Assembly: GCF_000182745.2 (NCBI RefSeq)
Contig: NC_016027.1
Span: 2,262,001 to 2,326,000, forward strand
Direction of reading: 5' to 3'
Source of the DNA: Komagataeibacter medellinensis NBRC 3288
GTDB taxonomy: Bacteria; Pseudomonadota; Alphaproteobacteria; Acetobacterales; Acetobacteraceae
DNA length: 64,000 bases
The notes below the pieces were generated by a model. The model was not told the origin of the DNA. It did not search any database and worked only from the letters and a program-made list of their open reading frames with translations. Below, piece after piece: positions 27,432 to 62,459 of this stretch; the stretch's first letter is position 1, and the number at the start of each line of letters is the position of its first letter. The position numbers and the translations under genes were made by a program.

Positions 27432-27510
27432 AAGTTTTTGACGAAGCCTTTTTAAAAAGCTTCAAGGAACACCGCCTTTTTGAAAAAAGGCGGCACCCAA
27501 AAACTTTTAT
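27432..27510 (-). repeat. Dispersed two-hairpin element, copy 1
   Basis: Starts AAGTTTTTGACGAAG. A first hairpin is GAAGCCTTTTT/AAAAAGCTTC, a second CCGCCTTTTT/AAAAAAGGCGG, and the end is CACCCAAAAACTTTTAT. It lies between the convergent djlA-like and mrp genes. Its edge supplies the TAA stop codon of mrp. Confidence 0.85.
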
Positions 27511-28682
27511 CTTTTTTCGGTAGCGGTTTTGGACTTCTTATCCAGCAGTCGGCGCAAAGCGCCCGCCACGGTATGCGCCAGCGCGCGATAGGCCTGGCCT
27601 GCCGCACTGTCGGGGGCGGCGATGACAATGGGCGCACCCGCATCGGCGCTGGCGCGGATATCGGCCAGCAGCGGGATCTCACCCAGGAAGGGCACGCCCA
27701 TCTTTTCTGCTTCCGCCCGTGCGCCACCATGGCCGAACAGTTCGGTACGATGGTTGCAGTTGGGGCAGCAGAAATATGACATGTTCTCCACCATGCCCAG
27801 TACCGGCACGTTCATCTTCTCGAACATGGCAATGCCGCGCCGGGCATCCAGCAGGGCAATGTCCTGTGGGGTGGAGACGATCACGGCACCAGCCAGCGCG
27901 GTCTTCTGCGCCAGAGTCAGCTGCGCATCACCCGTGCCGGGTGGCATGTCCACCACCAGCACGTCCAGCGCACCCCAGTCCACATCACCCAGCAGCTGGT
28001 TGATCGCCCCCATGACCATTGGCCCGCGCCAGATCATGGCCTTGCCCTCATCCACCAGCATGCCGATCGACATGGCGCTGATGCCCCATTTATGCGGTGG
28101 GATCAGGCGGCTGTCCCGCACTTCGGGCTGATCGCCCATGCCCATCATGCGCGGCAGGGAGGGGCCGTGCACGTCCGCATCCATCAGGCCGACCTTCAGT
28201 CCTTCCAGCCCCAGTCCCACGGCAAGGTTTACGGCGGTGGTGGACTTGCCCACCCCCCCCTTGCCCGATGCCACGGCAATGACCACACCCACGCCAGCAG
28301 GCAGCGGACCAGTGGCAGTTTTGGGCGCGCCACCACCCAGGTTGAGCGGGCGGTGACCGCCGCCCGCGGGAGCCGGTGCGGCGGGTGCTGGTGCAGGCGC
28401 CGGGGTGGCGCGGTGCGCGGTCAGGATCACGCTGGCACCCGTGCTGCCGGGAACTGCGTGGGCAAGGGCCTGTTCAAGTTCGGGCAGGAGTGCTTGCAAG
28501 CGCTGCGCGTGGCTGCGTTCGGTCGCGATGGCCACATGCAGCACGCCATCGCGCACCATGAAGGCATCCAGCCTGCCCAGGTCGGCCACGCAGGCTGCGC
28601 CATCGGGTGTACGGACGTGCCGCAGCACGTTTTCTATTGTTGTCCGCTCGGGGGTTGTCCGCTCGGTGCTGGTCATTGTCAT
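27507..28682 (-). CDS. Mrp/ApbC-family iron-sulfur cluster carrier ATPase
   Basis: Cytosolic P-loop ATPase that binds and hands over Fe-S clusters. The 391-aa protein has an N-terminal MIP18-like domain (about 15-95), an alanine/proline linker, then a ParA-type ATPase with the deviant Walker A GKGGVGKST (about 142-150), VGLMDADVHGPSLPRMMG, VVDMPPGTGDAQLTL and the cluster-binding cysteines CPNC (in YFCCPNCNHRTELFG). Its stop codon lies within the edge of repeat copy 1. It is divergent from the OpgC-like gene. Confidence 0.95.
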   Translation of the reverse strand: MTMTSTERTTPERTTIENVLRHVRTPDGAACVADLGRLDAFMVRDGVLHVAIATERSHAQRLQALLPELEQALAHAVPGSTGASVILTAHRATPAPAPAPAAPAPAGGGHRPLNLGGGAPKTATGPLPAGVGVVIAVASGKGGVGKSTTAVNLAVGLGLEGLKVGLMDADVHGPSLPRMMGMGDQPEVRDSRLIPPHKWGISAMSIGMLVDEGKAMIWRGPMVMGAINQLLGDVDWGALDVLVVDMPPGTGDAQLTLAQKTALAGAVIVSTPQDIALLDARRGIAMFEKMNVPVLGMVENMSYFCCPNCNHRTELFGHGGARAEAEKMGVPFLGEIPLLADIRASADAGAPIVIAAPDSAAGQAYRALAHTVAGALRRLLDKKSKTATEKR

Positions 28683-28901
28683 GCACTCCCTGTTCTGGCG
28701 CCCATGCGGGTATAGAAGGCGGGGGGCAGGGTGGTCGAGTCATGAAACGAAAACCTCGCCGCCATGCTGCTCCTGCGGGGCATCCCTGCCCGGTGGGAAT
28801 GGCTTTCGGGCAGTTTTGCTGCTTTACGCTGGGCAGACAGCCCCGCAGGTTCCGGACCGGGACTGCATCATTCTTGCCGACAGGATCATTACGGAACCAT
28901 T

Positions 28902-30059
28902 ATGGGTAATTCCCCTCTGCCACAGGCACCCCACCGGCGTGACCACAGAATCGATGCACTGCGGGGCATGGCACTGCTCATGATGTGTATCGACCATATT
29001 CCACAGGATGTGCTCAACCGCTTTACCATGCGCAACATAGGCTTTGCCGATGCGGCGGAGGTGTTCGTGCTGCTGGCGGGCTATGCTTCATGGCTGGCCT
29101 ACGGGCGGGCCTTTGGCAAGAAGCCGGCGGGTACGGTACTGGGGCGGATCGGGCGGCGGTGCTGGCAGCTTTATGTGTACCAGATGGTGATGGTGGTCGT
29201 GTGCATCGCCACCATCCGCATATGGCGGCATTTCTGGCCGGTGCCGGTTGATTTTCTTGAGCCGGAACTGGCGCACGGGCTTGATGCGGCGTGGCGGGTG
29301 CTCTCGCTGCAGGCGTTGCCGGGCAACCTGAATATCCTGCCGCTCTATATCGTGCTACTGCTCGGCTTTGGGCCGCTGTTCGTGCTGCTGCGCGGCGTGG
29401 GCACGCCGGTGGTGCTGGGTCTTAGCGCTACGGTGTGGCTGGTGGTCAATTTTGACCCGCGGCTGAACTTTCCCAACTGGCTGGACCCTGATGGCTGGTA
29501 TTTCGACCCGCTGGCCTGGCAGTTCCTGTTTGTATTGGGGGTGTGCGCAGCCCGTGTTGCGGGACAGCACGGGGGCAGCCTGCCGCGTGTGCCGGGGCTG
29601 GCGTGGGTGTGTGGGGGGTATCTGGCGTTTTCCGCCGTGCAGTCCTTTCCATGGACGGACTGGGGGCTGGCGGACCTGCGGCTGCTGGCCATGGCGGTGC
29701 CGGACAAGATGATCCTCTCGCCATGGCGGCTGCTTGATGTGCTGGCGCTGTTCTACCTTGTCCAGTCATCGGGGCGGGCAACGGCGCTGGCCGCGACAAG
29801 GGGCGGCCAGCTCATGGCGCTGTTCGGTCGCCATTCGCTGGAAATCTTTACCGCCGGCACCCTGATCGACCTGTATGCGCGCCTGGCGCTGACCAGTTTC
29901 GGCACCGGCTGGACCATGCAGGTTGTGGTCAATGTGGTGGGGTTTGTCGTGCTGCTGGGCGTTGCGCGTAACCGCGAGCGTGCCCGCCAGGCCGCGCGCC
30001 AGTCACGGCCCGCCCACGGTGGCGCGGTGCCGCCGGGTGTGCCGCTGTGCCGGAACTGA
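28902..30059 (+). CDS. OpgC-like membrane acyltransferase
   Basis: Polytopic inner-membrane protein (385 aa) of the OpgC family, which in other bacteria adds succinyl groups to osmoregulated periplasmic glucans. It has the family opening RDHRIDALRGMALLMMCIDHIP, the FADAAEVFVLLAGY segment, about ten hydrophobic helices and LNFPNWLDPDGWYFDPLAWQFLFVLG near the middle. ATG 28902 is chosen because it starts the conserved part; the upstream frame to 28764 is unlikely. OpgG/H-type genes lie 5 kb downstream, which supports a glucan-linked role. Confidence 0.85.
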   Translation: MGNSPLPQAPHRRDHRIDALRGMALLMMCIDHIPQDVLNRFTMRNIGFADAAEVFVLLAGYASWLAYGRAFGKKPAGTVLGRIGRRCWQLYVYQMVMVVVCIATIRIWRHFWPVPVDFLEPELAHGLDAAWRVLSLQALPGNLNILPLYIVLLLGFGPLFVLLRGVGTPVVLGLSATVWLVVNFDPRLNFPNWLDPDGWYFDPLAWQFLFVLGVCAARVAGQHGGSLPRVPGLAWVCGGYLAFSAVQSFPWTDWGLADLRLLAMAVPDKMILSPWRLLDVLALFYLVQSSGRATALAATRGGQLMALFGRHSLEIFTAGTLIDLYARLALTSFGTGWTMQVVVNVVGFVVLLGVARNRERARQAARQSRPAHGGAVPPGVPLCRN

Positions 30060-30128
30060 CGTGGCGGTTTCCGCGTACATGAAGGGCGTGATATAGGTGC
30101 TCCGTCCCGATCCCGTTCAGCAGGATAT

Positions 30129-31703
30129 ATGAGCCCCATGTCCCTTCGTGTCGCTGCATTTTCCCGATCCTGCCTTGCCGTAGGGCTGGCCACGGCGCTG
30201 GGGGGGCATGTCGCGCAGGCGGCCGACCCGGCACCCGCGCCAGCACCGGCCGCCGCAACGCCGATGCACCTGCCCGGTGAGGGGCGCAACATGCCCGACA
30301 GCTTTGCCGACCTTGCGGCAAGGTTGCTGCCCGCCGTGGTCAATGTCTCCACCACCGAGATGGTCCGCCCCGGCGAAGAGGATGGCGATGATGGGGATGA
30401 CGGCGACAACACGCCGCAGGTGCCCAATTTCCCCGAAGGCTCGCCGTTCGAGAAATTCTTCCACGATTTCATGAACCGCCAGGACAGTCCCAACGCGCCC
30501 CCGCGCAAGATGCAGGCGCTGGGCTCGGGTTTCATCATCGACCCTTCAGGCGTGATCGTGACCAACAACCACGTTGTCCGCCATGCCGACCAGATCACCA
30601 TCACGCTACAGGACAATACCGTGCTCAAGGCCCGCCTGTTGGGCCATGACGACCGCACCGACCTTGCCGTGCTGAAGGTGGACAGCCCCAAGCCACTGCC
30701 TGCCGTGCCCTTTGGCGATAGCGACACTGCCCGCGTAGGTGACTGGGTGCTGGCGATCGGCAACCCGTTTGGCCTGTCGGGCACGGTTACGGCGGGTATC
30801 GTCTCCTCGCGCGGGCGCAATATCGAGCAGGGGCCGTATGATGACTTCATCCAGACCGATGCGCCCATCAACAAGGGCAATTCCGGCGGGCCGTTGTTCA
30901 ACCTGCATGGTGAGGTGATCGGCATCAATACCGCTATCTTCTCGCCCTCGGGCGGGTCGATCGGCATCGGCTTTTCCATCCCCTCGGCCGAAGCGCAGGG
31001 CATCATTGCCCAACTGCGCCAGCACGGCCGGGTCACGCGCGGGTGGATTGGTGTGCGGATTCAGGACGTGACGCAGGAAATTGCCGATGGCCTTGGCCTG
31101 AAAAGCGCCCATGGCGCGCTGATCGCAGGCGTCGAGCCCAAGGGCCCGGCCGCAAACGCCCACCTGCAGACCGGCGACGTGATCCAGAGCCTGAACGGCA
31201 AGGATATAGATGGTCGTGCCCTGCCGCGCCTTGTGGCCGAATTGGCGGGTGGCAGCGTGGCCCACCTGGGTATCTGGCGCAAGGGCCAGCAGATGAACAT
31301 CAACATCACCATCGGTGCCCTGCCCGAGGAAAAGACCGACAAGGCCGACAATGCCCACCCGGCGGCAAAGAACCCGGCACAGGGTAGCATGACCGTGGCA
31401 GGTATGGGCTTTACGGTGGGCGAGATCGATGACATTGCACGCCAGAAATACAACATGGCCGAGGGGCAGAAGGGCGTGCTGGTAACCGGTGTGACCGATG
31501 ACAGCCCGGCCGCCGAGCGTGGCCTGCGCCCCGGTGATGTGGTGACCGAAGTGCAGCAGGCCGCCGTCAATACGCCCACTGACCTGCGCCGCCAGCTTGA
31601 TGCGGCCCGCACCCAGCACCGCAAGACCGTACTGTTTCTGGTGCAGAATGCCGATGGCCTGCGCTGGGTGCCCTTTCCCCTGCCGGAAGGTAGCGGGCAC
31701 TGA
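30129..31703 (+). CDS. DegP/HtrA-type periplasmic serine protease
   Basis: Periplasmic protease/chaperone for misfolded envelope proteins. The 524-aa protein has a signal peptide (hydrophobic SCLAVGLATALGGHVAQAA), then a trypsin-like domain with the catalytic triad H in VTNNHVV, D in RTDLAVLKV and S in NKGNSGGPLF. Two PDZ domains follow (GWIGVRIQDVTQEIADGLGL and GFTVGEIDDIARQKYN...RGLRPGDVVTEV). An acidic stretch (EEDGDDGDDGDN) precedes the protease domain. It is followed 5 bases later by the FUSC gene. Confidence 0.95.
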   Translation: MSPMSLRVAAFSRSCLAVGLATALGGHVAQAADPAPAPAPAAATPMHLPGEGRNMPDSFADLAARLLPAVVNVSTTEMVRPGEEDGDDGDDGDNTPQVPNFPEGSPFEKFFHDFMNRQDSPNAPPRKMQALGSGFIIDPSGVIVTNNHVVRHADQITITLQDNTVLKARLLGHDDRTDLAVLKVDSPKPLPAVPFGDSDTARVGDWVLAIGNPFGLSGTVTAGIVSSRGRNIEQGPYDDFIQTDAPINKGNSGGPLFNLHGEVIGINTAIFSPSGGSIGIGFSIPSAEAQGIIAQLRQHGRVTRGWIGVRIQDVTQEIADGLGLKSAHGALIAGVEPKGPAANAHLQTGDVIQSLNGKDIDGRALPRLVAELAGGSVAHLGIWRKGQQMNINITIGALPEEKTDKADNAHPAAKNPAQGSMTVAGMGFTVGEIDDIARQKYNMAEGQKGVLVTGVTDDSPAAERGLRPGDVVTEVQQAAVNTPTDLRRQLDAARTQHRKTVLFLVQNADGLRWVPFPLPEGSGH

Positions 31704-31708
31704 GCCGT

Positions 31709-32824: not shown

Positions 32825-32860
32825 ATGGAGCGGCCAGGGTAACACAGTGCAGGAGATACC

Positions 32861-34324: not shown

Positions 34325-34336
34325 AGGGTGCTCCCT

Positions 34337-34882: not shown

Positions 34883-34963
34883 GATAGGAAAATCCGTTCC
34901 AGATAACATCGTTTCCGGTAGAAGGGGGTAATGGTATAGCTGCTGGCGGGAGTATAAAACACC

Positions 34964-35329: not shown

Positions 35330-35421
35330 TCACGGTCATTGTGCTGGTCCCTGTACCCGCAGGCAGGTCGTGATGTGTTCCTGATGCCTGACCAATAAGA
35401 AATAAACTGGAGTTTAATTCG

Positions 35422-36945
35422 GTGTTACGACGTGATTTCATGAAGGCGGGAACGGCACTTGGTGTCCTGTATGGTGCCGGTACCGTGCCCGTGCGAACTG
35501 CCCGCGCGGCACAGAGCGCCAATTTTGATTCGGCAACCGTGCGCACACTGGCGCACCAGCTCTCGCAGCAGCCTTACCAGCCGCCTTCCCAGACATTGCC
35601 TTCTGCACTGCGTAACCTGAATTTCGACCAGTATAATTCCATTGCCTTCCGCTCCGAACAGGCCCTGTGGCATGGCGAGAACCTGGGCTTTGATGTCGAG
35701 TTCTTTCCGCGTGGCTATCTGTACGCACCCCGGATCGATATGAACGAGGTGATTGATGGCCAGTCGCGCCCCATCGCCTTCAATGCCGACATGTTCACCT
35801 ATAACGATCCCGCCCTGCGCGTGAGCGAGGATATCGGGTTTGCGGGCCTGCGGCTGCGCGCGCCGATCAACACGCCGGGTGTGATGGAGGAGTTCTGCGT
35901 CTTTCTTGGCGCTTCCTATTTCCGTGCCGTGGCCAAGGGACAGACCTATGGGCTGTCCGCGCGTGGCTTTGCCGATGGCACCGGCGACCCGACGGGTGAA
36001 GAATTCGCCCTGTTCCGCGCCTTCTGGTTGGAAAAGCCCAAGGCAGGCGTGGACAGCGTGGTTATCCATGCCCTGCTGGACAGCCCGTCACTGGCCGGTG
36101 CGTTCCGCTTTACCATCCGGCCGGGCGAGACAACGGTCTTTGATGTCCAGTCTTATCTCTACCCGCGCAAGGCAATTGCGGAATCCGGCATCGCGCCCCT
36201 GACCGGCATGTTCTATTTCGATGCGAATGATCGCACGCGCGTGGATGACTGGCGCCCCGCCGCCCATGACAGCGAGGGCCTGTCCATGTGGACCGGCAGC
36301 GGCCAGCAGTTGTGGCGGCCGCTGCGCAACCCGCGCGACCTGCAGTTCTCTGCCTTCAGCGATGTAAGGCCGCATGGCTTTGGCCTGATGCAGCGCAAGC
36401 GCGCCTTCACTGATTTCGAGGACGTGTCGTTGAACTATGAAAAACGGCCCTCGCTCTGGATCGAGCCGATCGGGGACTGGGGGAGCGGTGCGGTGGATCT
36501 GGTGGAAATTCCCACCCCCAATGAGGTGAACGACAATATCGTCTCCTTCTGGCGCCCGCAGGAGGCGCTGGCGGCAGGGCATGAATATGTGTTTACCTAC
36601 CGCATGTACTGGGGGTGGGACACGCCATGGCCCACCAGGCTGGCCCGCATTGTGGCCACCCGCGTGGGGGCGGCGACTGATGATTCGCATACCCGCTTCT
36701 TCGATCTCGACTTTGTCGGCACGCCGTTCGACAAACTGCCCGACAACCCGCATTTCCACCTGCAATGCCGTACGTCCGCAGGTGAGATCCGCAATGTGGT
36801 GGTCGAGCCGGTACCCCCCATCCATGGTTGGCGCAGCACGTTCGAGTTCGCACCCGGCGATGCCAAGGTGGCGGAACTGAACTGCGTGTTGGCAGATGAC
36901 AATGGTCCCGTATCGGAAGAATGGGTCTACCGATGGACACCGTAG
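35422..36945 (+). CDS. Periplasmic glucan biosynthesis protein (OpgD/OpgG family)
   Basis: Acts in the periplasm on beta-glucan chains made by OpgH. The 507-aa protein starts at a GTG with CTGGAG upstream and has a twin-arginine signal (RRDFMKAG then a hydrophobic stretch ending AARA-like RTARAAQSA), a feature of OpgD rather than OpgG. The mature region carries the MdoG family segments YNSIAFRSEQALWHG, FPRGYLYAPRIDMNEV, EFCVFLGASYFRAVAKGQTYGLSARG and FEDVSLNYEKRPSLWIEPIGDWG. The stop overlaps the start region of the opgH gene, so the two are coupled. Confidence 0.93.
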   Translation: MLRRDFMKAGTALGVLYGAGTVPVRTARAAQSANFDSATVRTLAHQLSQQPYQPPSQTLPSALRNLNFDQYNSIAFRSEQALWHGENLGFDVEFFPRGYLYAPRIDMNEVIDGQSRPIAFNADMFTYNDPALRVSEDIGFAGLRLRAPINTPGVMEEFCVFLGASYFRAVAKGQTYGLSARGFADGTGDPTGEEFALFRAFWLEKPKAGVDSVVIHALLDSPSLAGAFRFTIRPGETTVFDVQSYLYPRKAIAESGIAPLTGMFYFDANDRTRVDDWRPAAHDSEGLSMWTGSGQQLWRPLRNPRDLQFSAFSDVRPHGFGLMQRKRAFTDFEDVSLNYEKRPSLWIEPIGDWGSGAVDLVEIPTPNEVNDNIVSFWRPQEALAAGHEYVFTYRMYWGWDTPWPTRLARIVATRVGAATDDSHTRFFDLDFVGTPFDKLPDNPHFHLQCRTSAGEIRNVVVEPVPPIHGWRSTFEFAPGDAKVAELNCVLADDNGPVSEEWVYRWTP

Positions 36946-39119
36946 CGGCCAGCGCCCCATCCGAACCGCCCCCTGCGGGCAATGCCGGGACCGATACGCG
37001 GCTGCCACAGGGCTGGAGCGCGCTGCCGCGCCCAGCCCCGCTGGAGATGCCCGTCCATGCGCTGGAGGACGCACCCGACCTGCATGGCCGCGCGCGCGTG
37101 CCCTCTACCGAATGGCAGCTGATCGGCCTGCGCCGCCTGCTGGTCATCGGTGGCGCCCTGGCCATGACCGGGGCTGCCGGTTACGAGATGGACCTGGTGT
37201 TCAATGCCGTACAGCGCTCGGTTGCGGGTATGGTGATGCTGGTGCTGTTCATCCTGTTGTTCATGTGGATCGCGCTGGCCTTTACCTCTGCCGTAGCAGG
37301 TTTTTTTTCCATGCTGGCTGGTGGCGGGCTGGGTCTTGGTATTGCGCGTGGCGGCTCGCTGCCACGCCTGTTGACCCGCACGGCGCTGCTCATGCCGACC
37401 TATAACGAGGACCCCGGTCGTGTCATGGCGGGCCTGCGTGCCACCATCGACAGCCTTGCCGCCACCCGGCAGGAGCGCGCGTTTGACGTTTTCATCCTGT
37501 CCGACACCACCGATCCCGATGTGTGGGTGGCAGAGGAGGCGGCCTATATGGCCCTGTGTCGCGCCACGGGGTGGGGCGGGCGACTGTTCTACCGCAGGCG
37601 CGCGGCCAATACCGACCGCAAGGCGGGCAACATAGGCGAGTGGGTGCGCACTTATGGCGCGGCCTACCAGCAGATGATCACGCTTGATGCCGACAGCGTC
37701 ATGTCCGGTGACGTGATCGTGCGGCTGACTTCAGCCATGGAGCATAATCCCGGTGTGGGGTTGATCCAGTCGCTACCGGTGATTGTAAACGGGCACACCC
37801 TGTTTGCCCGCATGCAGCAGTTCGCGGGCCGTGTGTATGGGCCGCTGATTGCCCATGGCATTGCCTGGTGGCACGGCTCGGAAGGGAATTACTGGGGGCA
37901 TAACGCAGTCATCCGCACCGCAGCCTTTGCCGAACAGGCAGGCATGCCGCACCTGCCGGGGCGCAAGCCCTTTGGCGGCGCGATCATGAGCCATGACTTT
38001 GTGGAGGCGGCCCTGATGCGTCGGGGGGGCTGGGCCATTCATATGGTGCCCGCCCTGAGCGGATCATATGAAGAAAGCCCGCCTTCACTGACCGATATCG
38101 CCATCCGTGACCGACGGTGGTGCCAGGGCAACCTCCAGCATGCCAAAGTGGTCTCAACGCGCGGGTTGCACTGGGTCAGCCGTATGCACATGCTCATGGG
38201 CATCGGCTCCTATGTTACGGCGCCGCTGTGGCTGATCTTTCTGCTGGTGGGTATTCTCGTGTCATTGCAGAGCCGCTTTTACAAACCGGAATATTTCGGT
38301 GATACAAAGCTGCTCTATCCGCACTGGCCGCATGTTGACCCGGTGCAGGCGGAATACATGTTCATCGGCACCATGGGCGTGCTGCTGGCCCCCAAGGTAC
38401 TGGCCTACATCCTGCTGCTTGTTGATGGCCCGCTGCGGCGCGGCTGTGGGGGCGGGATCGCGGCGGGGGCCTCCATACTGGTTGAAACGGTGGTGGGTGG
38501 CCTGCTGGCGCCTATCGCCATGCTGATCCAGACCGGTGGCGTGCTGTCGATCCTGCTGGGTCGTGATTCCGGCTGGAATGCCCAGCGGCGTGATGCGGGG
38601 GGACTCCAGATTGCACAGAACGTGCGGCTGTACATGCTCCATACCGTACTGGGCCTGATGCTGGCGGGGGCTGCGTGGAGTGTCTCGCTACCGCTGTTTT
38701 TGTGGATGCTGCCGGTCACTCTGGGGCTGGTCTGCGCCATTCCGCTGGCGGTGCTGACGGGTAGCGCTGCCGTGGGGCAGGCCTTCCGGCGCGCGCGCCT
38801 GCTGCTGATCCCCGAGGAGACGGCCCCCCCTGCCGTGCTCTCGGCGGCCGTAGCTTATATGGGCCAGATGGCTGGCCACCCCGTGCAGGAAGCCATTGCC
38901 GCCCTGCGGGCGCGCACGGGGCTGCTCAGGGTACATGAAATCATGCTGCCACCGCCGCGCCGGCCGGGTGGCCCGATCAATCCTGCACTTCTGGTCGGGC
39001 TGCTTAAGGTGCGTGAGGCGCCAGACCTGGCCACTGCCGTGCGCGAACTCAACCGCGCAGAGAAATCAGCCGTACTGGGCAATGCGGAGGGGTTGCAACT
39101 GCTTGCGCGCTTGCCCTGA
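36933..39119 (+). CDS. opgH: Glucan glucosyltransferase OpgH
   Basis: Inner-membrane GT2 enzyme that polymerises glucose from UDP-glucose into periplasmic glucan and passes it across the membrane. From ATG 36933 it is 728 aa (ATG 36921 possible). Membrane helices lie near residues 75-135 and 440-650. The catalytic domain between them shows LMPTYNEDPGRV, ILSDTTDPDVW, the DxD in TLDADSVM, the MSHDFVEAALMRRGGW base region and RDRRWCQGNLQH, the QxxRW-type motif. It is coupled to the opgG/D gene; together they make the glucan the OpgC-like protein may modify. Confidence 0.95.
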   Translation: MDTVAASAPSEPPPAGNAGTDTRLPQGWSALPRPAPLEMPVHALEDAPDLHGRARVPSTEWQLIGLRRLLVIGGALAMTGAAGYEMDLVFNAVQRSVAGMVMLVLFILLFMWIALAFTSAVAGFFSMLAGGGLGLGIARGGSLPRLLTRTALLMPTYNEDPGRVMAGLRATIDSLAATRQERAFDVFILSDTTDPDVWVAEEAAYMALCRATGWGGRLFYRRRAANTDRKAGNIGEWVRTYGAAYQQMITLDADSVMSGDVIVRLTSAMEHNPGVGLIQSLPVIVNGHTLFARMQQFAGRVYGPLIAHGIAWWHGSEGNYWGHNAVIRTAAFAEQAGMPHLPGRKPFGGAIMSHDFVEAALMRRGGWAIHMVPALSGSYEESPPSLTDIAIRDRRWCQGNLQHAKVVSTRGLHWVSRMHMLMGIGSYVTAPLWLIFLLVGILVSLQSRFYKPEYFGDTKLLYPHWPHVDPVQAEYMFIGTMGVLLAPKVLAYILLLVDGPLRRGCGGGIAAGASILVETVVGGLLAPIAMLIQTGGVLSILLGRDSGWNAQRRDAGGLQIAQNVRLYMLHTVLGLMLAGAAWSVSLPLFLWMLPVTLGLVCAIPLAVLTGSAAVGQAFRRARLLLIPEETAPPAVLSAAVAYMGQMAGHPVQEAIAALRARTGLLRVHEIMLPPPRRPGGPINPALLVGLLKVREAPDLATAVRELNRAEKSAVLGNAEGLQLLARLP

Positions 39120-39149: not shown

Positions 39150-39225
39150 TTTCCGGTAAGTCTTTTCCCGGAAAATTCAGGGAATGTCGCCTTTTTGGAA
39201 AAAGGCGATACCCAAAAAATTTTAT
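39150..39225 (-). repeat. Dispersed two-hairpin element, copy 2 (degenerate)
   Basis: The right half, CGCCTTTTTGGAAAAAGGCG then ACCCAAAAAATTTTAT, matches the family. The left half is decayed. It lies between convergent opgH and the secreted unknown protein. Confidence 0.65.
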
Positions 39226-39282: not shown

Positions 39283-39735
39283 TCAGTCGGAGGAGGTGCC
39301 CTGCGGGGCGGTGACGGCTTCTTCCCCTTCATCAGACCCGTCCACTGACATGATCGAATCCAGCGCGTCGCACAGTTTTTTCTGGTTGCTGCTGGCGAGT
39401 TTGCCGGGATTGGCGCACAGCTTGGCTGCATCGGGTACGCAGGACTCTGTTGCGTCCTCATAATCCGATTCCATCACGTCATGCGCCAGTGACAGGTTGG
39501 GGTTGTGTGCCTGCTCACTGGCCTCCTCGATCACCTTTTCCATCTTGTGTAGGTCATCAAGCTTGTCCAGGCAGGGCTTGCTGGCCAGGTCCGGCTTGAG
39601 GCGCAGCACATCCATCGCGCGCTGTACCTTCTGTGTGGCCAGGCTCTGGCCATGGGCCGTAGCACTCAGCAGCGCGGGTGAGAGCAGCAATGCAACCGGC
39701 AGTGCGGCGAGGCGTAGAGACAGGTTGATGTTCAC
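39283..39735 (-). CDS. Secreted hypothetical protein, 150 aa
   Basis: Unrecognised periplasmic or secreted protein. The N-terminus is a signal peptide (LSLRLAALPVALLLSPALLSATAHG, cleaved near residue 29). The mature part is acidic and helical, with four cysteines (KPCLDKL, ESCVPDA, KLCANPG, KLCDALD) that could form two disulfides. It ends in an acidic tail. It stands alone, convergent with opgH. Function unknown. Confidence 0.75.
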   Translation of the reverse strand: MNINLSLRLAALPVALLLSPALLSATAHGQSLATQKVQRAMDVLRLKPDLASKPCLDKLDDLHKMEKVIEEASEQAHNPNLSLAHDVMESDYEDATESCVPDAAKLCANPGKLASSNQKKLCDALDSIMSVDGSDEGEEAVTAPQGTSSD

Positions 39736-41935: not shown

Positions 41936-42004
41936 AAGTTTTTGGTGAAGCTTTTTTCAAAAAGCTTCAGGGAATGCCGCGTTCCTGAAAACAGGCGATC
42001 CCCG
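41936..42004 (-). repeat. Dispersed two-hairpin element, copy 3
   Basis: AAGTTTTTGGTGAAGC, then hairpin GAAGCTTTTTT/AAAAAGCTTC and GGGAATGCCGC. The second hairpin is decayed. It lies between the convergent permease and the small minus-strand gene. Confidence 0.75.
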
Positions 42005-42082: not shown

Positions 42083-42361
42083 TCAGATCCCGCGTTCGGG
42101 CCGCCTGCGCGGGTTGCGTGGGCGCTCGGCAGTGTTGCCGCCAGAGGGGCCGCGCCGTTCATCGGCCTTGAGTGCCGGGGCCGCACTCACTTCGCTTTCA
42201 AGCTGGCGGATGCGCTTCTGCACGCTTTCGCGGAGAGTGGGGGCGGTATGCGATTTCATGGAGGCCAGCGTCTCGCGCAGGTCGCGCAGTTGCTTCTGCT
42301 TTTCGGCAAGTGTGCGACGGATCGGCTGGTTATCGGACATCTGTCCGTGGAATGCGCGCAT
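42083..42361 (-). CDS. Small coiled-coil hypothetical protein, 92 aa
   Basis: Unrecognised. Residues about 15-55 (IRRTLAEKQKQLRDLRETLASM, TLRESVQKRIRQLESEV) are a strongly predicted amphipathic helix or coiled coil. The tail is arginine- and proline-rich (RPRNPRRRPERG), as in a nucleic-acid-binding or disordered end. It has its own terminator on the minus strand, which supports a real gene. The start at 42361 has GGATAC upstream; 42340 is the alternative. Confidence 0.65.
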   Translation of the reverse strand: MRAFHGQMSDNQPIRRTLAEKQKQLRDLRETLASMKSHTAPTLRESVQKRIRQLESEVSAAPALKADERRGPSGGNTAERPRNPRRRPERGI

Positions 42362-54385: not shown

Positions 54386-54412
54386 TGGTGCGGCACATAA
54401 GGGAGAGTGAAC

Positions 54413-55243: not shown

Positions 55244-55244
55244 C

Positions 55245-55985: not shown

Positions 55986-56080
55986 GTGCGTTATGTGTAA
56001 GGACCGTGCAGATGCAGCAGGGCCAATAAGAATGACGGGGCACCCAAGGCAGGGATACCCCGCAGGAGAGGAAACAGCGC

Positions 56081-56785
56081 ATGTCCACCCATATTACGGA
56101 CCCCAGGGCAGAACTGAAGCGTAAGGCCGCGATCGAGGCCGCCGACATGGTGAAGGAAGGCATGGTGGTCGGCCTCGGCTCGGGCAGTACGTCCGCCTTC
56201 ATGATCGAGGAGCTGGGCCGTCGCTGGGCAGAAGGGCTACGGTTCTGCGCCATTCCCACATCCGAGCGTTCGGCCGAGCAGGCGCGCTCGCATGGGATCA
56301 GGCTGGTCACATTCGCCACTCACCCGCAGATCGACATCGACATTGATGGCGCAGATGAAGTGGAGCGGGGCACGCTGAACCTGATCAAGGGGCTGGGGGG
56401 CGCGCTGTTCCGTGAAAAGATCGTGGCTGCCGCCTCACGCAGGTTCGTGGTGGTGGTGGATGACAGCAAGCTGGTTGATCGGCTGGGTGTAGCCGTGCCA
56501 GTGCCGGTGGAAGTCGCCAATTTTGGCTGGAACTCGACCGCGCGCCAACTTGAGGCGCTGGGTGCGAAAGTAACCCAGCGGCTGGACCGCAGCGGCAACG
56601 TGTTCGTGACTGATGGTGGCAACATGATCCTGGATTGTCATTTTGGCGAGATTGCCGATTCAGATACCCTGCAGAACCAGCTTGACCGTGTGGTGGGCGT
56701 GATCGAGACGGGATTGTTCATTGGCCGGACGTCCGAAGTGATCGTGGCCACGGCCGATGGCCTGCAGCGGTTGCATGCGGCATGA
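56081..56785 (+). CDS. rpiA: Ribose-5-phosphate isomerase A
   Basis: Interconverts ribose 5-phosphate and ribulose 5-phosphate. The 234-aa protein has the conserved MVVGLGSGSTSAFMIEELG, PTSERSAEQA, DIDIDGADEVE and the catalytic KGLGGALFREKIVA with its glutamate and lysine. A second lysine lies in VVVDDSKLVDRLG. The stop overlaps the gntK start by 4 bases (ATGA), so the two are coupled. Confidence 0.96.
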   Translation: MSTHITDPRAELKRKAAIEAADMVKEGMVVGLGSGSTSAFMIEELGRRWAEGLRFCAIPTSERSAEQARSHGIRLVTFATHPQIDIDIDGADEVERGTLNLIKGLGGALFREKIVAAASRRFVVVVDDSKLVDRLGVAVPVPVEVANFGWNSTARQLEALGAKVTQRLDRSGNVFVTDGGNMILDCHFGEIADSDTLQNQLDRVVGVIETGLFIGRTSEVIVATADGLQRLHAA

Positions 56786-57333
56786 CCGGCAAGGCATTGC
56801 AGGACCAGGGTATCAGGCCGTTGGTCCTTGTCATCATGGGGGTGTCAGGCTGCGGCAAGACCACTCTGGCGGAGGGCCTGCATAATCTGTTGGGTTGGCC
56901 CTATCAGGAAGGTGACCTGCTGCATCCCCGCGCCAATGTGGAAAAAATGGCGGCGGGCATTCCCCTGACCGATGCCGACCGCCTGCCATGGCTACAGACC
57001 TGCCGCACATGGCTGCATGAGCGCGTGGTGTCGGGGCAGGGGGGGATCCTGACCTGCTCGGCGCTCAAGCGCTCCTACCGCGATCTGTTGCGTGCGGACG
57101 GTAATGAGGGGATCGTGTTCGTCTATCTGGAAATCCCGGAGGCTGTGCTGTCTGACCGGTTGAAGCGCAGGCGGGGCCACTACATGCCCCCCAGTCTGCT
57201 GCCCAGCCAGCTTGCAACACTTGAGGCGCCGACGGCGGATGAGCACCCGGTAGTGGTGCATCTGGAAGCAACGCCTGCGGACCTGATTGCCGAAACACTC
57301 GGGTTGTTGAAGCAGGAATTTCCCCAACCCTGA
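56782..57333 (+). CDS. gntK: Gluconokinase
   Basis: Phosphorylates gluconate to 6-phosphogluconate, feeding the pentose phosphate pathway; gluconate is a major overflow product of acetic acid bacteria. The 183-aa protein has Walker A GVSGCGKTTLAEGL (about 21-34), QEGDLLHPRANVEKMAAGIPLTDADRLPWL and CSALKRSYRDLLR, the standard gluconate-kinase motifs. It overlaps rpiA and is followed by repeat copy 4. Confidence 0.95.
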   Translation: MTGKALQDQGIRPLVLVIMGVSGCGKTTLAEGLHNLLGWPYQEGDLLHPRANVEKMAAGIPLTDADRLPWLQTCRTWLHERVVSGQGGILTCSALKRSYRDLLRADGNEGIVFVYLEIPEAVLSDRLKRRRGHYMPPSLLPSQLATLEAPTADEHPVVVHLEATPADLIAETLGLLKQEFPQP

Positions 57334-57362
57334 CGGGATAAGGTCATTCATTGGCAAAGAAG

Positions 57363-57442
57363 GATAAAAGTTTCTGGGTGCCGCCTTTTTTAAAAAGGCG
57401 GCGTTCTTTGAAGCTTTTTGAAAAGAGCTTCACCAGAAACTT
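57363..57442 (+). repeat. Dispersed two-hairpin element, copy 4
   Basis: GATAAAAGTTTCTGGGTG, hairpin CCGCCTTTTTT/AAAAAGGCGG, linker CGTTCTTT, hairpin GAAGCTTTTTG/AAAAGAGCTTC and end CACCAGAAACTT. This is the clearest full copy. It lies between gntK and the phosphatase on the same strand. Confidence 0.9.
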
Positions 57443-57485
57443 CCTTACATTTTATTTTTAAACTGACCGATCGGGTAAGGCATTC

Positions 57486-57965
57486 ATGACCCGCTCTCCC
57501 GTCTCCGTACTGTTTGTATGTATGGGCAATATCTGTCGCTCCCCCCTGGCAGAGGCCGCGTTCCGTGACGCGGCCCGGCGGGCGGGGCTGGATGTGGTGG
57601 TTGATTCGGCTGGAACCGGCAACTGGCATGCCGGTTCCGCGCCGGACCGGCGGGCCTGTGCCACTGCCCTGCGCCATGGCATTGATATCAGCCGCGCCCG
57701 CGCGCGCATGGTTCGGCCTGCGGATTTCGAGCGCTTTACCCATATCGTTGCGCTGGACCATGCCAACCTTGCCCATCTGCAGGCCATGCAGCCCGCAGGT
57801 AGCCGGGCACAGCTATCCCTGCTGCTGGACCATGTGCCCGGCAGACAGGGCCATGCCGTGGCCGATCCGTATTATGGCGATGCCAGCGGGTTCGAGACCA
57901 CATGGCACGACGTGACCGCCGGGGCGCAGGCACTGGTGGGTAAACTGCAAAAGGACAGCGCATGA
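57486..57965 (+). CDS. Low-molecular-weight protein-tyrosine-phosphatase family enzyme
   Basis: A 159-aa phosphatase with the signature loop VCMGNICRSPLAE (CX5R, residues about 11-24) and the general acid aspartate in VADPYYGDASGF. In several bacteria the neighbour of a fructosamine-kinase homologue is a phosphatase of this family that dephosphorylates ribulosamine 5-phosphate during protein deglycation. Here the gene overlaps exactly that homologue (ATGA), so a metabolite-repair role fits better than tyrosine phosphatase signalling. Activity is inference. Confidence 0.9.
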   Translation: MTRSPVSVLFVCMGNICRSPLAEAAFRDAARRAGLDVVVDSAGTGNWHAGSAPDRRACATALRHGIDISRARARMVRPADFERFTHIVALDHANLAHLQAMQPAGSRAQLSLLLDHVPGRQGHAVADPYYGDASGFETTWHDVTAGAQALVGKLQKDSA

Positions 57966-58783
57966 CCCGCCTGGCCCGGCACGGTGCTGCCCTGCTGGGA
58001 GGACAGTTGTGGAACTGGCACCCGCTGCAGGGCGGTGACTTGGCGCAGACATTGCTGGTCTATCTCAATGACGGGCGCAGGGTGGTGGTCAAGAATGGCC
58101 CCGATCCACTGGCGGAGGCCGCCATGCTGCGCACGTTGGGCGAGACCGGCGCGCCGGTGCCCGATGTACTGGCGGTGGATGAGGATGCGCTAGTGCTGCA
58201 GTACCTGCCCGCCGATGGCCCGCTTGCCACCTGCTGGGGCGATCTGGGGCGCGTACTGGCGCAGGCGCATACTGGCAGGCCGCCGGAAGGGGCAGTTCGT
58301 TACGGCTGGCGCACCGATTATGCACTGGGCACGGTAGCGGTGCCCAACACATGGATGGATACGTGGCCTGGCTTCTGGGCCGAGCGCCGCATTGGCATCC
58401 ATCTGGACCATGTGGGGATTGACCTTGCTCATCAGCTTGAGCGCCTGATGTACCGCCTGCCAGACCTGCTGCCCGCCAGACCTGCACCCAGCCTGCTGCA
58501 TGGGGATCTGTGGGGTGGGAACGTGCTGGTCTCGGCCCGGCGGGTGACGGGGCTGATCGACCCATGCTGCTGTTATGGCCATGCGGAGGTGGATCTTGCC
58601 ACTGCCGGGGTGTTTGACCGGCCCGCTGCTGCTTTCTTCATGGCTCATGAGTCGCTTGAGGCGGGATATGAAGCGCGTTTTGCCATCTATCGACTCTGGA
58701 TTGCGCTGGTGCATCTGCGGCTGTTTGGCGCGACCTACCGGCCCCTTGTGGCCCATTACCTTGATGGGGCGGGTGTGGGGTAA
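57962..58783 (+). CDS. Fructosamine/ribulosamine-3-kinase family protein
   Basis: A 273-aa phosphotransferase of the fructosamine-3-kinase family. It has the kinase-like lysine in VVVKNGPDPLAEAAML, the catalytic loop SLLHGDLWGGNVLV (HGD...N) and the metal site LIDPCCCYGHAEVDLA. In bacteria these enzymes mainly phosphorylate ribulosamines and erythrulosamines formed when proteins react with ribose 5-phosphate or erythrose 4-phosphate, making them unstable so the sugar falls off. It is coupled to the phosphatase gene upstream. Confidence 0.93.
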   Translation: MTRLARHGAALLGGQLWNWHPLQGGDLAQTLLVYLNDGRRVVVKNGPDPLAEAAMLRTLGETGAPVPDVLAVDEDALVLQYLPADGPLATCWGDLGRVLAQAHTGRPPEGAVRYGWRTDYALGTVAVPNTWMDTWPGFWAERRIGIHLDHVGIDLAHQLERLMYRLPDLLPARPAPSLLHGDLWGGNVLVSARRVTGLIDPCCCYGHAEVDLATAGVFDRPAAAFFMAHESLEAGYEARFAIYRLWIALVHLRLFGATYRPLVAHYLDGAGVG

Positions 58784-58815
58784 GGTATCGCGCGACTGTA
58801 TGGCAGGACTGAAGT

Positions 58816-58898
58816 GATAAAAGTTTCTGGGTGCCGGCTTTTTTCAGAAAAGCAGCGTTCCCTGAAGCTTTTTAGAAAAAGCTTCATCAAAAACTTTT
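58816..58898 (+). repeat. Dispersed two-hairpin element, copy 5
   Basis: GATAAAAGTTTCTGGGTGCC, a weakened first stem, then hairpin GAAGCTTTTTAG/AAAAAGCTTC and CATCAAAAACTTTT. It lies between the convergent kinase gene and tRNA-Asp. Confidence 0.85.
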
Positions 58899-58954
58899 CT
58901 TTGATTTAAAGGGATTTCTGTGGAGAGAGGCTTTATGAAAGCCGCACCATAAAA

Positions 58955-59031
<77 letters not shown>

Positions 59032-59115
59032 ATCCGCTGCCGCCCTGTGGGCTGCAACCGTTCGGTGAAAGGGCAAATAACAGGCTGCCCCCGACATGGC
59101 AACAGGGCAGGCAAA

Positions 59116-59152
59116 AAAAAACGCCATGACAGGGTCTTTCATGGCGTTTTTT
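59116..59152 (-). terminator. Terminator of the ahpCD operon
   Basis: ACGCCATGA and TCATGGCGT form a 9-bp stem extended by A/T pairs and flanked by A-runs and T-runs, so it can work in both directions. It lies 17 bases past the ahpD stop on the minus strand. Confidence 0.85.
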
Positions 59153-59168
59153 GGGCAGCGGGATGGGA

Positions 59169-59696
59169 TCAGGCAGGAAGTTCCACGCCATCCAGCGTTA
59201 CGGCAATGGCGCTGACGGTCGCGGCAATGCGCACTGCCGTCTGAATATGTTCGGTAGTCAGGCCCGCTGCGCGCAGCTGGCGCTCGTGGCTTTCCATGCA
59301 TAGCCCGCAGCCATTGATGGCGGAGACGGCCATGGCCCACAGCTCGAAATCCACCTTATCCACGCCGGGGTTGTTGATGATGTTCATCCGCAGGCGCGCG
59401 GGCAGTTTTGCATAATCACCGCCCACAAGGTGCACGAAACGGTAATAGACATTGTTCATGCCCATGATGGCCGCCGCTGCTCGTGCCGCTTCCAGCGCCT
59501 CGGGCGCGAGGCGGGGGCCGTATTCGGCGGTCAGGGCGTGGGTCACGGCCGGGTTGCGTGCTGCAATGGCGCTGGCGATGAACGTGCCGCCAAGCTGCTG
59601 CGGCGTCAGCACGATATCGTTGGCGAGCGAGCCGAGGTTGAGCTTCAGATCCTTGGCGTAGTCCGGCAGTGCGGCCTTGATGGAATCGATCGACAT
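59169..59696 (-). CDS. ahpD: Alkyl hydroperoxide reductase AhpD
   Basis: Carboxymuconolactone-decarboxylase-fold thiol reductase that recycles AhpC. The 175-aa protein begins [20 protein letters not shown] and has the redox motif CGLCMESH (CxxC plus histidine, about residues 130-137). ATG 59696 gives the standard N-terminus; the open frame upstream is spurious. It is the second gene of the ahpCD operon. Confidence 0.95.
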
Positions 59697-59844
59697 GGCA
59701 TGTGTCCGTAGGCTGGGGCCTGTGCCTGCCCCATTACGTGGCCGTGCGGGCAGGAAAGGGCGGTGTGCGGGGGGGCAGGGTGATGTGGGGCGTATGTGCC
59801 CTGCACGGGAATGAACCCCGCGCAGGCGCACACGCACCGGGCCA

Positions 59845-60387
59845 TCATGCCTTGATGAAAGCGTCGCCCTTGTTCCAGTTGCACGGGCACAGCTCGTCGC
59901 TCTGCAGGCCGTCAAGGATACGCAGGATTTCCTGCGGGTTACGGCCAACCGACAGGTCATTGACACTGACATGGCGGATGATGCCCTGCGGGTCGACAAC
60001 AAAGGTCGCGCGGTAAGCCGCACCGGCCTGCTGCGACATGACGCCACAGCTTTCGATCAGCTCGCGCTTGATGTCGGACAGCATCGGGATTTCGAGGTTC
60101 TTCAGTTCGTCATGGTGCAGGCGCCAGTTCAGGTGCACGAAGGCGCTGTCGATCGATACGCCGTACACCACGGTGTCACGGTCGCTGAACTCACCGGCCA
60201 GCTTGCCGAATGCCACGATCTCGGTCGGGCAGACGAAGGTGAAGTCCAGCGGCCAGAAGAAAACGACCTTCCACTTGCCTTCGTTCGATTCGTCCGTGAT
60301 CTGCACGAACTCGCCTTTCAGCCCTTCGGGGCCGCCGGGTACGGCGCTCAGGTTGAAGGCGGGAAACTTGTCACCGATTGTCAGCAT
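59845..60387 (-). CDS. ahpC: Peroxiredoxin AhpC (AhpD-partnered type)
   Basis: 2-Cys peroxiredoxin that reduces hydrogen peroxide and organic peroxides. The 180-aa protein has the peroxidatic cysteine in FTFVCPTEI (about 46-54) and near the end [12 protein letters not shown], the form seen in AhpC proteins that work with AhpD. ATG 60387 has AGGAG 10 to 11 bases upstream; an earlier in-frame ATG at 60414 is not needed. It is divergent from oxyR, the likely regulator. Confidence 0.95.
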
Positions 60388-60517
60388 ATTGGGCAGGCTC
60401 CTGTTAGGGATCATGATGTTGGGTGCGACGGATGGCGCAGCCCGGAGCCTGTATCTATGCCGGTCATGATGCTATCATACCAGTGAATTATTTATATATG
60501 CATGATCGGAATTATCG

Positions 60518-61453
60518 ATGCTTCCGATGCCCTCTGCCCAGCAGTTGCGCTACCTTGTAACCCTTGCCGAACTGCGCCATTTCGGGCGTGCGGCGCGGGC
60601 CTGTGCGGTGACCCAGTCCACGCTGTCCGCCGGTATCCTTGCCCTTGAACGGCAGATGGATGTCCGACTGCTGGACCGCGATGTGGGCAAGAAGGTCGTG
60701 TTCACCCCGGTGGGGGACAAGGTGATAGCCCGCGCACGCACGGCGCTTGAGGCCCTGCAGGGTGTGCTGGACGTGGCCGTGGCCTCGCGGGAGCCGATGA
60801 GCGGATTGCTGCGGATCGGTGTCATTCCTACCATCGGGCCGTTTGTCATGGCCTCGCTGGTGCGCAGGCTGCCACATGCCTATCCGCAACTGCATCTTTC
60901 GCTGAACGAGGACGTGACCCACAACGTCATGGCCAAGCTGGGCATGGGGCGGCTGGACCTTGTGCTGCTGGCCATGCCGTGGGACTGCGCCGATAACGAG
61001 ATACTGCCCCTGTGGCGCGATCCCTTCATGCTAGTCATGCCGCATGACCACCCGCTTGCGCAGCTGCCTGTGGTACCGGTGCGCGACATCGTGCGCGAGC
61101 GCATGATCCTGCTGGAGGACGGGCACTGCCTGCGTGACCAGACGCTGGCCATGTGCCACCAGGTGCGTGGCTGGAACCCGCCGGCGGATGGGGCGGAATG
61201 TGCCGTAACCTCGTTGCACACCATGGTGGAAATGGTGGGCGCCGGCATGGGGCTGGCGCTGCTGCCGCAGCTTGCAGTCGATTCCCCGCTGCTGGATGGC
61301 CAGAAGCTGGCGGTCCGGCCCGTGACGGGTGCACAGACATGGCGTACTATCGGCCTGGCATGGCGCCCGCGTTCCCCCCGGGCGGCGGATTTCCATACTA
61401 TTGCCCCGTTTTTCGTGCCGGATTCGATCACACAGGCGAATTCCCTGCTGTAA
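60518..61453 (+). CDS. oxyR: LysR-type peroxide regulator OxyR
   Basis: Transcription activator that senses hydrogen peroxide by forming a disulfide and switches on ahpC and similar genes. The 311-aa protein has the winged-helix N-terminus (LRYLVTLAELRHFGRAARACAVTQSTLSAGILALE) and the redox pair in the GHCLRDQTLAMC segment, equivalent to Cys199 and Cys208 of E. coli OxyR. The 130-base divergent gap to ahpC should hold the shared operator. Confidence 0.95.
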   Translation: MLPMPSAQQLRYLVTLAELRHFGRAARACAVTQSTLSAGILALERQMDVRLLDRDVGKKVVFTPVGDKVIARARTALEALQGVLDVAVASREPMSGLLRIGVIPTIGPFVMASLVRRLPHAYPQLHLSLNEDVTHNVMAKLGMGRLDLVLLAMPWDCADNEILPLWRDPFMLVMPHDHPLAQLPVVPVRDIVRERMILLEDGHCLRDQTLAMCHQVRGWNPPADGAECAVTSLHTMVEMVGAGMGLALLPQLAVDSPLLDGQKLAVRPVTGAQTWRTIGLAWRPRSPRAADFHTIAPFFVPDSITQANSLL

Positions 61454-61551
61454 AGTGCTCCAGAATCCGGCTGTGTAGTTGACTCAGGGCGCAGGGAAGG
61501 CTATTCGGGCGCCTCTTTTGCGGTATATCGCAATTAGTCGAGGGTCGGATC

Positions 61552-61677
61552 ATGAAAATCAGAAACAGCCTGAAATCGGCCAAGGTTCGGGACAAGGACT
61601 GCCGTGTGGTCCGTCGCCGTGGCAAGGTCTATGTCATTAACAAGAAGAACCCGCGCATGAAGGCCCGTCAGGGCTGA
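61552..61677 (+). CDS. rpmJ: Ribosomal protein L36
   Basis: A 41-residue ribosomal protein, [20 protein letters not shown] followed by 21 residues rich in arginine and lysine ending [10 protein letters not shown]. It has the single-cysteine form common in alphaproteobacteria (the zinc-binding four-cysteine set is absent). It is a separate small gene 98 bases after oxyR, followed 13 bases later by the TPR gene. Confidence 0.95.
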
Positions 61678-61690
61678 TTGCCAGGCGGCC

Positions 61691-62365
61691 TTGACCGTCA
61701 GGTTCATCTTTGAACAGCGGCAAAGCCGCGCAGGCCGGTTTTTGATAACCTGTCTGCGTGGCTTTTCGTTCGTACCCCTGTTTCTGGGAATGGGCCTGCC
61801 CTCCGTTGTGGCCGCACACGGGGTGGACCGCCATGCGGCCCCGCCCGCTATCATCGCCAGAGATGGTAGGGATAAGCCTGCGGCTGAACCCTCGCTCGAC
61901 AGTCTTGAGACGGAACTGGCCCATGCTGCCACTGCCCGTGGCGCGCGTGACCTGCAGGGCCGGATCGAACAGCAGCGTTTGAAGGAACTGGCCCCCACCA
62001 CCACCCTGCTGGTCCGCCGCGCGCAGGATGATCTTGATGCCCAGCGCCCGCTTGATGCGGTGCAGGACATGGATGATGCGCTGCTACTTCAGCCTGAGGT
62101 GGAAGTGCTGTGGCGCAACCGCGCGCAGGCGCGCCTTGTTGCCCGCAATCTCGATGGGGCGGTGGCGGATCTGGGTGTTGCGCTGCATCATGACGGGCGT
62201 GACGTGATGGCGTGGAAAATCCTTGAGGATACCGAAGAGCAGCGTGGTGACTGGCAGGCAGCATGGAAAGCCTGGCAGCATGTGCTGCAGCTTGATCCCA
62301 CCACGCCTGATGCCGACCATGAGACACAGAAGCTGCGCCTGAAGGCATTCGGGCAGCCGACCTGA
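61691..62365 (+). CDS. TPR-repeat protein with signal peptide
   Basis: A 224-aa protein. The N-terminus fits a signal peptide (basic RQSRAGR, hydrophobic FLITCLRGFSFVPLFLGMGLPSVVA, cleaved near residue 42). The mature region is mainly two to three tetratricopeptide repeats (AQDDLDAQRPLDAVQDMDDALLLQPE, WRNRAQARLVARNLDGAVADLGVAL, WKAWQHVLQLDP). It is probably periplasmic and scaffold-like. The TTG start has only a weak AGGCGG site; a later start near 61793 would remove the signal. Confidence 0.75.
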   Translation: MTVRFIFEQRQSRAGRFLITCLRGFSFVPLFLGMGLPSVVAAHGVDRHAAPPAIIARDGRDKPAAEPSLDSLETELAHAATARGARDLQGRIEQQRLKELAPTTTLLVRRAQDDLDAQRPLDAVQDMDDALLLQPEVEVLWRNRAQARLVARNLDGAVADLGVALHHDGRDVMAWKILEDTEEQRGDWQAAWKAWQHVLQLDPTTPDADHETQKLRLKAFGQPT

Positions 62366-62376
62366 TACCTGAATCA

Positions 62377-62459
62377 TAATAGAAGTTCTTTGGGCGCCGC
62401 CTTTTTTAAAAGGCGGCGTTCTTCAAAGATTTTCAAAAAAAGCTTCACCAAAAACTTTT
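62377..62459 (+). repeat. Dispersed two-hairpin element, copy 6
   Basis: AGAAGTTCTTTGGGCG, hairpin CCGCCTTTTTT/AAAAGGCGG, linker CGTTCTTC, a second weakened hairpin and the end CTTCACCAAAAACTTTT. It lies between convergent TPR and OmpA/MotB-like genes. Confidence 0.85.

Follow-up and report, generated by a model that had tools for sequence, protein, structure and literature searches.

Correia, ERIC and others are short structured interspersed repeats, and the mobility of one such repeat, RUP, is ascribed to an insertion sequence (IS). The target duplications of IS1031-group elements are TNA. Microinversions in chloroplast DNA usually involve a loop. The accessible part of one report on hairpin-associated microinversions of chloroplast DNA describes a segment at a palindromic stem–loop that inverts repeatedly (PMC3123225). 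Among the mapped intrinsic terminators of Zymomonas, an alphaproteobacterium, the convergent class is over-represented according to the accessible part of that study (PMC7566282). Here we describe a repeated element of Komagataeibacter medellinensis NBRC 3288, of which six copies lie in a stretch of 64,000 nucleotides (contig NC_016027.1, positions 2,262,001 to 2,326,000; in the following the window). Its core, two hairpins with an outer stem, occurs on its own and inside a miniature inverted-repeat transposable element (MITE). As the best explanation of the whole, to which we assign a probability of about 0.6, we propose that the core is a two-way terminator which has been spread in part by the MITE and occasionally switches its orientation in place.

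Structure of the core

The core is a paired structure. It folds as a three-way junction consisting of the outer stem AAGTTTTTGG/CCAAAAACTT and two hairpins, and the covariance model R1 was built with these three stems. In an alignment of 58 copies, 24 cells with pair-keeping double changes were counted versus 10.2 ± 2.7 after shuffling (0 of 500), and the covariation score was 0.131 compared with 0.109 for the shuffled alignments and at most 0.066 with slid partners. Across genera (27 rows) the double-change cells numbered 41 versus 5.6 ± 2.0 after shuffling, in an alignment that was fitted to the model and hence leans towards the structure; loci L287, L297 and L305 were left out of it, the last being an orthologous locus 92.5% identical to L294. 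The hairpin stems GAAGC, GCAGC, GGGGGC and GTGGCCCC swap between genera together with their matching partners. Each of the three arms has T5/A5 tracts, and these are near-invariant across genera, as is the outer stem AGTTTTTGG/CCAAAAACT. Departures of the G-T and A-C type were about equally frequent (93 vs 73, p 0.14). In the elements scoring at least 50 bits the right flank is T-rich and the left flank A-rich, and with distance from the core the information content of the flanks declines over about 13 to 19 bp.

The six copies of the window are given below with their R1 scores and neighbouring genes:

27432..27510, plus strand: copy 1 of the three-armed core, 98.9 bits; convergent gap, DjlA-like gene (26599-27414, plus) and ApbC/Mrp-like gene (27507-28682, minus)
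39150..39225, plus strand: copy 2, 62.6 bits; convergent gap, MdoH (36921-39119, plus) and an unassigned gene (39283-39735, minus)
41936..42004, plus strand: copy 3, partly decayed, 38.0 bits, matching model positions 14-73 only; convergent gap, MFS transporter gene (ends 41805, plus) and a called gene (42083-42361, minus); the gap also holds classical terminator-like hairpins
57363..57442, minus strand: copy 4, 104.0 bits; tandem gap, kinase-like AAA gene (56782-57333, plus) and low-molecular-weight phosphatase gene (57486-57965, plus)
58816..58898, minus strand: copy 5, 88.7 bits; flanked by a fructosamine-kinase-family gene (57962-58783, plus) and a tRNA (58958-59031, minus)
62377..62459, minus strand: copy 6, 84.3 bits; convergent gap, TPR-like gene (to 62365, plus) and OmpA-domain gene (62512-63474, minus)

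An earlier reading of the window from its letters alone (the original prediction) had placed six copies here, with copies 1–3 running in one direction and copies 4–6 in the other. R1 recovered all six at these positions and in these directions, with 38.0–104.0 bits, and all align to the single consensus TAAAGAAGTTTTTGGTGAAGCTTTTTTCAAAAAGCTTCAARGAACGCCGCCTTTTTGAAAAAAGGCGGCACCCAAAAACTTTTATTATTTTT. Also as predicted, five of the six lie between convergent genes and none inside a called gene, as judged by our own gene calls and tRNA prediction. The RNA folding z-scores of the six copies ranged over both strands from -1.3 (copy 3) to -6.1.

Copy number and placement

The host genome (3.5 Mb, 8 contigs) contains at least 133 R1 matches at E ≤ 0.001, in 132 places, the matches at 1956862 and 1956851 being one element matched on both strands; since 150 of 1,137 first-look candidates were scored, 133 is a floor. 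The six copies of the window are therefore not a chance likeness. All 133 matches listed are on contig C3 (3.14 Mb), which includes the window, and none is on the other seven contigs (0.376 Mb; probability under an even spread 2.8e-7). Within C3 the first part, about 1-466,000, holds 3 of the 133 matches, far below expectation (p 1.2e-6, with a limit chosen post hoc). Possible reasons for this sparseness are the order of replication or the recent gain of this region.

Of seven named loci that code for a relative of a window protein, six are from Komagataeibacter, with K. rhaeticus the nearest (92%). Each of the 19 Komagataeibacter genomes has between 34 and at least 150 matches, so that the dispersed family foreseen in the original prediction extends through the host genome and the genus. 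Three related genomes, G184, G060 and G302, have the fewest (34, 69 and 76) and are mostly without the element at four sites examined; they may be suited to a search for the ancestral state. With stricter filters, a sample of the family gave a match in 48 of 299 genomes and in 21 of 102 genera. Eleven genomes from outside the genus were picked because they have matches; the counts range from 125 to at least 150 in the four that belong to genus g73 and from 2 to 108 in the other seven. No match was found in 50,697 phage records, and carriage by phages was rejected on this count. A known RNA family was rejected too: scans with Rfam 15 of the window (at gathering scores) and of eight loci (at E up to 0.1) yielded only tmRNA, tRNA and one sub-threshold match sitting on a tRNA, and no family matched the element; the earlier reading had not put a family name to it either. 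No description of the element came up in a literature search of titles and the starts of abstracts, most subscription papers being outside its reach, and the exact core strings occur in no searchable paper text.

The placement of the element was assessed in syntenic 400-kb stretches of the host genome and two relatives. Genes were called with our own codon-score script, which makes gene starts approximate; elements of at least 32.5 bits were counted, and weaker matches and second-strand matches were dropped. Convergent gaps hold 69 of the 92 elements, tandem gaps 21 and a divergent gap one, and the remaining one overlaps a weak gene call, which bears out the predicted preference for convergent sites. 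Neither of the outcomes named beforehand as refuting the original prediction, a lack of further copies or of a convergent preference, was observed. The odds ratio of this bias is 31 (background 113 convergent and 464 other gaps, all of at least 80 bp), with each element equated to one gap, although two of the gaps contain a pair of elements and two others measure less than 80 bp. The orientation in tandem gaps is even (10 along the genes vs 11 against). At the best-scoring loci of other genera, a non-random sample, 21 of 28 usable loci were convergent, seven tandem and none divergent; these 28 come from 30 loci, as L297 repeats L283 and L290 is without a right neighbour, and L287 was counted as tandem. 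In several of the other-genus loci both gene ends are within about 60 bp of the centre of the element.

The MITE and the switching of orientation

Four copies of the host genome (L005, L015, L019 and L030) have common flanks beyond the core. They are units of ~160 bp with the ends GAGGCTGTTTGAAAA and TTTTCAAACAATCTC or close variants, and the core is the interior of a MITE in these places. End-to-end matches to the 160-bp unit were found in several species. For the target duplications we picked 40 stretches with near full-length matches; the resulting 44 rows, most of which have the terminal inverted repeats GAGRCTGTTTGAAAA at both ends, represent 41 distinct copies once two duplicates and a miscall are removed. 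In 28 of the 41 copies the flanking 3 bp were identical on both sides, mostly TNA, versus 2 of 176 in the control. The twenty copies in genome G307 have a mean identity of 91%. The original prediction of a MITE-like mobile element thus holds insofar as the core is linked to a real MITE with 3-bp duplications. Its assignment of the AAGTTTTTGG inverted ends as transposon ends was rejected: these form the outer stem, and the true ends and the target duplications lie further out.

The end motif, with one mismatch at most, occurs 21 times in the host genome and not at all in the reversed control. Sixteen of these matches are at twelve core-bearing places (seven among the R1 places, five more degraded), and two are hairpin look-alikes. 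At L187 and L198 the motif opens degraded copies with fragments of IS4/5-type transposases (DUF4096/DDE_Tnp_1-like, below the Pfam cut-offs); the left end motif is common to both, while a right end could not be established. No intact partner IS with the MITE ends was found in the host genome, the only genome searched for it. The sequence GAGACTGTTTCAAAA, which departs from the MITE end by a single mismatch, opens an IS at L190 (C3:142,777), although the transposase of this IS is of a different family (Mutator, PF00872). Another palindromic unit (roughly 110-120 bp, ends CTAGAGC/GCTCTAG) adjoins the core at L046 and L172 (G303) and near C3:2,209,457 of the host (gap 115), and looks like a further MITE family.

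Reading by eye revealed the MITE nested in older cores at four places: at 815 kb in the host genome, at the sites of copies 1 and 2 in K. nataicola (name inferred) and at the copy 6 site in G307. The 41 full-length copies are placed in convergent gaps (23), in tandem gaps (15) and at locus edges (3); the convergent share of these young copies (23/38) does not differ significantly from that of the old ones (69/91; p 0.09). Among 72,556 plasmid records six carry the MITE, five from Komagataeibacter and one from Novacetimonas. Two of the plasmids concerned, K. nataicola pKNA07 (L306) and Novacetimonas hansenii p1 (L307), are typed as conjugative, and conjugative plasmids are a possible route of the MITE between genera. 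One of these two copies adjoins an IS630-family transposase gene; the other lies between convergent genes.

The distal flanks of the six window copies score 4-9 against the MITE arms (reversed controls 5-6). Because none keeps recognisable distal arms, the window copies are not intact MITEs. Beyond the first 12 to 14 bp, likeness to the MITE arms (score of at least 10) was seen in 8 left and 6 right flanks out of 65 each, and in none of the reversed controls. Near-consensus cores without MITE ends predominate both in the host genome and at the best loci of another genus. Most of the core-only copies may be MITEs that lost their ends to decay while the core was retained; alternatively, the MITE may have taken up an older core. 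The end-less near-consensus cores of the other genus would agree with such a capture, or else with a core under strong selection, whereas the gradual fading of the flanks and traces of MITE arms in that same genus (L279, L289 and L301) would fit decay.

At orthologous sites the element varies in presence and in orientation. The two genes at the copy 4 site abut without a gap in five of six named relatives, K. rhaeticus having the copy, and in G281 the gap at the copy 2 site measures 18 bp and is free of the element. Empty sites, which the original prediction had proposed to look for, thus exist; a clean target duplication was visible at neither of the two. The element gaps that differ in presence number 7 of 25 between the host and G281, 22 of 36 between the host and G135 and 25 of 36 between G281 and G135, by which vertical inheritance alone was rejected. 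At the common sites, same versus switched orientation was counted as 17 vs 1, 6 vs 8 and 4 vs 7 for the same three pairs.

At a few sites the core has switched between matching flanks, that is, it was flipped or replaced in place. In gap 79, compared between the host and G281, both flanks align and the core is inverted between the arms; the flank score is 28, compared with a maximum of 15 in a null set of 847 unrelated pairs. Both orientations with matching flanks also occur at the copy 5 site among G299, G300, G304, G306 and G307, where 6 of the 36 pairs in opposite orientation score above the 99th null percentile (best pair G306/G307, 23). The opposite orientation at the copy 6 site is found in the loci L032 and L034-L036; 3 of 48 pairs are above this percentile, and the best of them (15) does not go beyond the maximum of the null. 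The percentile is also passed by 3 of 6 pairs at the copy 2 site, but the opposite copy there is a nested MITE. None of 13 pairs exceeded the percentile at the copy 1 site, and copy 1 has kept its orientation in most genomes of the genus in which it was found. Because the flanks of few pairs exceed the null, independent insertion may lie behind most of the opposite-orientation pairs. The outer arms form an inverted repeat, and therefore the inner part could be inverted in place; the route could be an arm-to-arm inversion by template switching or a nested insertion followed by deletion. The identity of orthologs (cores of at least 45 bits) was uninformative between inversion and replacement. 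Between the host and G281, same-orientation orthologous cores have a mean identity of 79%, and fourfold sites one of 70.5%.

Function and comparison with known systems

We propose that the core is a palindromic module of the Acetobacteraceae which would act as a bidirectional transcription terminator at the 3' ends of genes. A transcript arriving from either side would fold such that the outer stem AAGUUUUUGG/CCAAAAACUU closes the two hairpins, and each strand would present an A-rich head and a U-rich tail around the three-way junction. In Komagataeibacter (and Novacetimonas) part of the spread would be due to transposition of the ~160-bp MITE with its IS4/5-type ends, carrying the core as cargo and leaving 3-bp, mostly TNA, duplications. 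Core-only copies like those of the window would arise as the MITE ends decay, or else the MITE would have taken up an older core. Occasionally the segment between the outer arms might invert in place, or a nested MITE of opposite orientation might replace it, and a symmetric terminator would tolerate such a switch. The placement, the paired stems and the flanking A- and T-rich tracts agree with a bidirectional terminator, as does the preference of such terminators for convergent gaps in Zymomonas (PMC7566282), and the core probably has this function; that the element has been kept as such, as the original prediction put it, is plausible.

Several observations weigh against the proposal. A simple scan for classical terminators calls only 2 of 72 elements (at least 50 bits) in the forward and 29 in the reverse direction, and the U-rich tail adjoins an AT-rich outer stem. 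Another terminator-like hairpin is present in 21 of 67 convergent gaps with the element and in 30 of 76 without it (p 0.38). Confined to gaps of at least 60 bp, the figures become 21 of 67 and 29 of 53 (p 0.015); this length cut was made post hoc, and replacement of other terminators was set aside as support. Concerning the structure, the pairing slid by +3 columns still yields 21 double-change cells in the 58 copies, and the first 30 copies, all near consensus, gave a weak covariation signal. Finally, unrelated copies are 75% identical, so that the orthologous cores are hardly closer.

This last point, together with the frequent presence of other terminator-like hairpins in the same gaps, would be expected if the element were purely selfish, the core being the interior of an IS4/5-type MITE without host function. 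Convergent gaps would then be the places where insertion does least harm, and the stems would be kept paired by template-switch correction at replication. A real mobile MITE carrying the core, its landing in older cores at least four times and the 23 convergent and 15 tandem positions of the 38 young copies placed also speak for it. We nevertheless regard a purely selfish repeat as rather unlikely, given that end-less near-consensus cores predominate in the host genome and at the best loci of another genus, that changes of the hairpin stems between genera are compensated, with the outer stem near-invariant, and that in several other-genus loci both gene ends are about 60 bp or less from the element centre. 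The near-invariance of the T5/A5 tracts in all three arms could also point to another role as a DNA site or as an RNA 3' structure: the core might, for instance, bind a nucleoid protein, serve as a sink for supercoiling where polymerases converge, or stabilise mRNAs at their ends. The balance of G-T and A-C departures, as under DNA-level or two-strand selection, and the mostly absent classical terminator form agree with such a role; A/T-rich flanks and placement are, however, equally expected of a two-way terminator, and we consider it improbable. Copy number, intergenic palindromes and placement at gene ends are also reminiscent of a REP/BIME or REPIN family spread by a RAYT (Y1) transposase. 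Such an origin is very improbable and was not supported: PF01797 (Y1_Tnp) was detected in 0 of 19 Komagataeibacter genomes versus 5 of 14 control genomes, and CGTC repeats are reported as missing from the Acetobacteraceae in the accessible part of one paper (PMC3733652).

A bolder form of the terminator proposal is tentative and, in our estimation, doubtful. The core would be a non-classical three-way-junction terminator with an AT-rich closing stem and near-invariant T5/A5 tracts, older than the MITE and taken up as cargo. A MITE carrying, and landing in, the stop signals of its host would insulate itself, and the core could flip in place since a two-way stop is directionless.

If the core is a terminator, about half of the sampled convergent gene pairs in the cellulose-making Komagataeibacter would share one repeated two-way stop. 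This would be of direct use for strain engineers, who need native terminators and have to avoid repeats. With more than 100 natural replicates per genome, the element lends itself to studying how gene punctuation arises from a mobile element, or how a mobile element forms around such punctuation; it is also a clean example of a core that switches its orientation between inverted arms.

In its ends the MITE resembles the IS5-family (IS1031-type) elements and their derived MITEs, which likewise start with GAG and make 3-bp, mostly TNA, duplications, and degraded IS4/5-family copies with the same left end motif are present in the host genome. Unlike these, the MITE carries a structured three-armed core that is commoner without the ends. 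With the bidirectional intrinsic terminators of Zymomonas, as far as described in the accessible part of that study (PMC7566282), the element shares the convergent placement, and the core its A-rich head and U-rich tail on both strands. It differs in that the core is a three-way junction with an AT-rich closing stem and not a single GC-rich hairpin, and in that its sequence is repeated and near-invariant. The RUP, BOX and SPRITE repeats of pneumococcus are likewise short, structured and interspersed, a likeness drawn from the accessible part of their description only (PMC3049150). The chloroplast microinversions, in the portion of the report available (PMC3123225), are similar as inversions at a palindromic structure, whereas the segment concerned here is a core with two hairpins, about 60 bp long, within a dispersed repeat of bacteria, and replacement by a nested MITE may be involved. 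MITEs and two-way terminators are already known; what is new is a MITE around a conserved three-armed core that switches its orientation in place.

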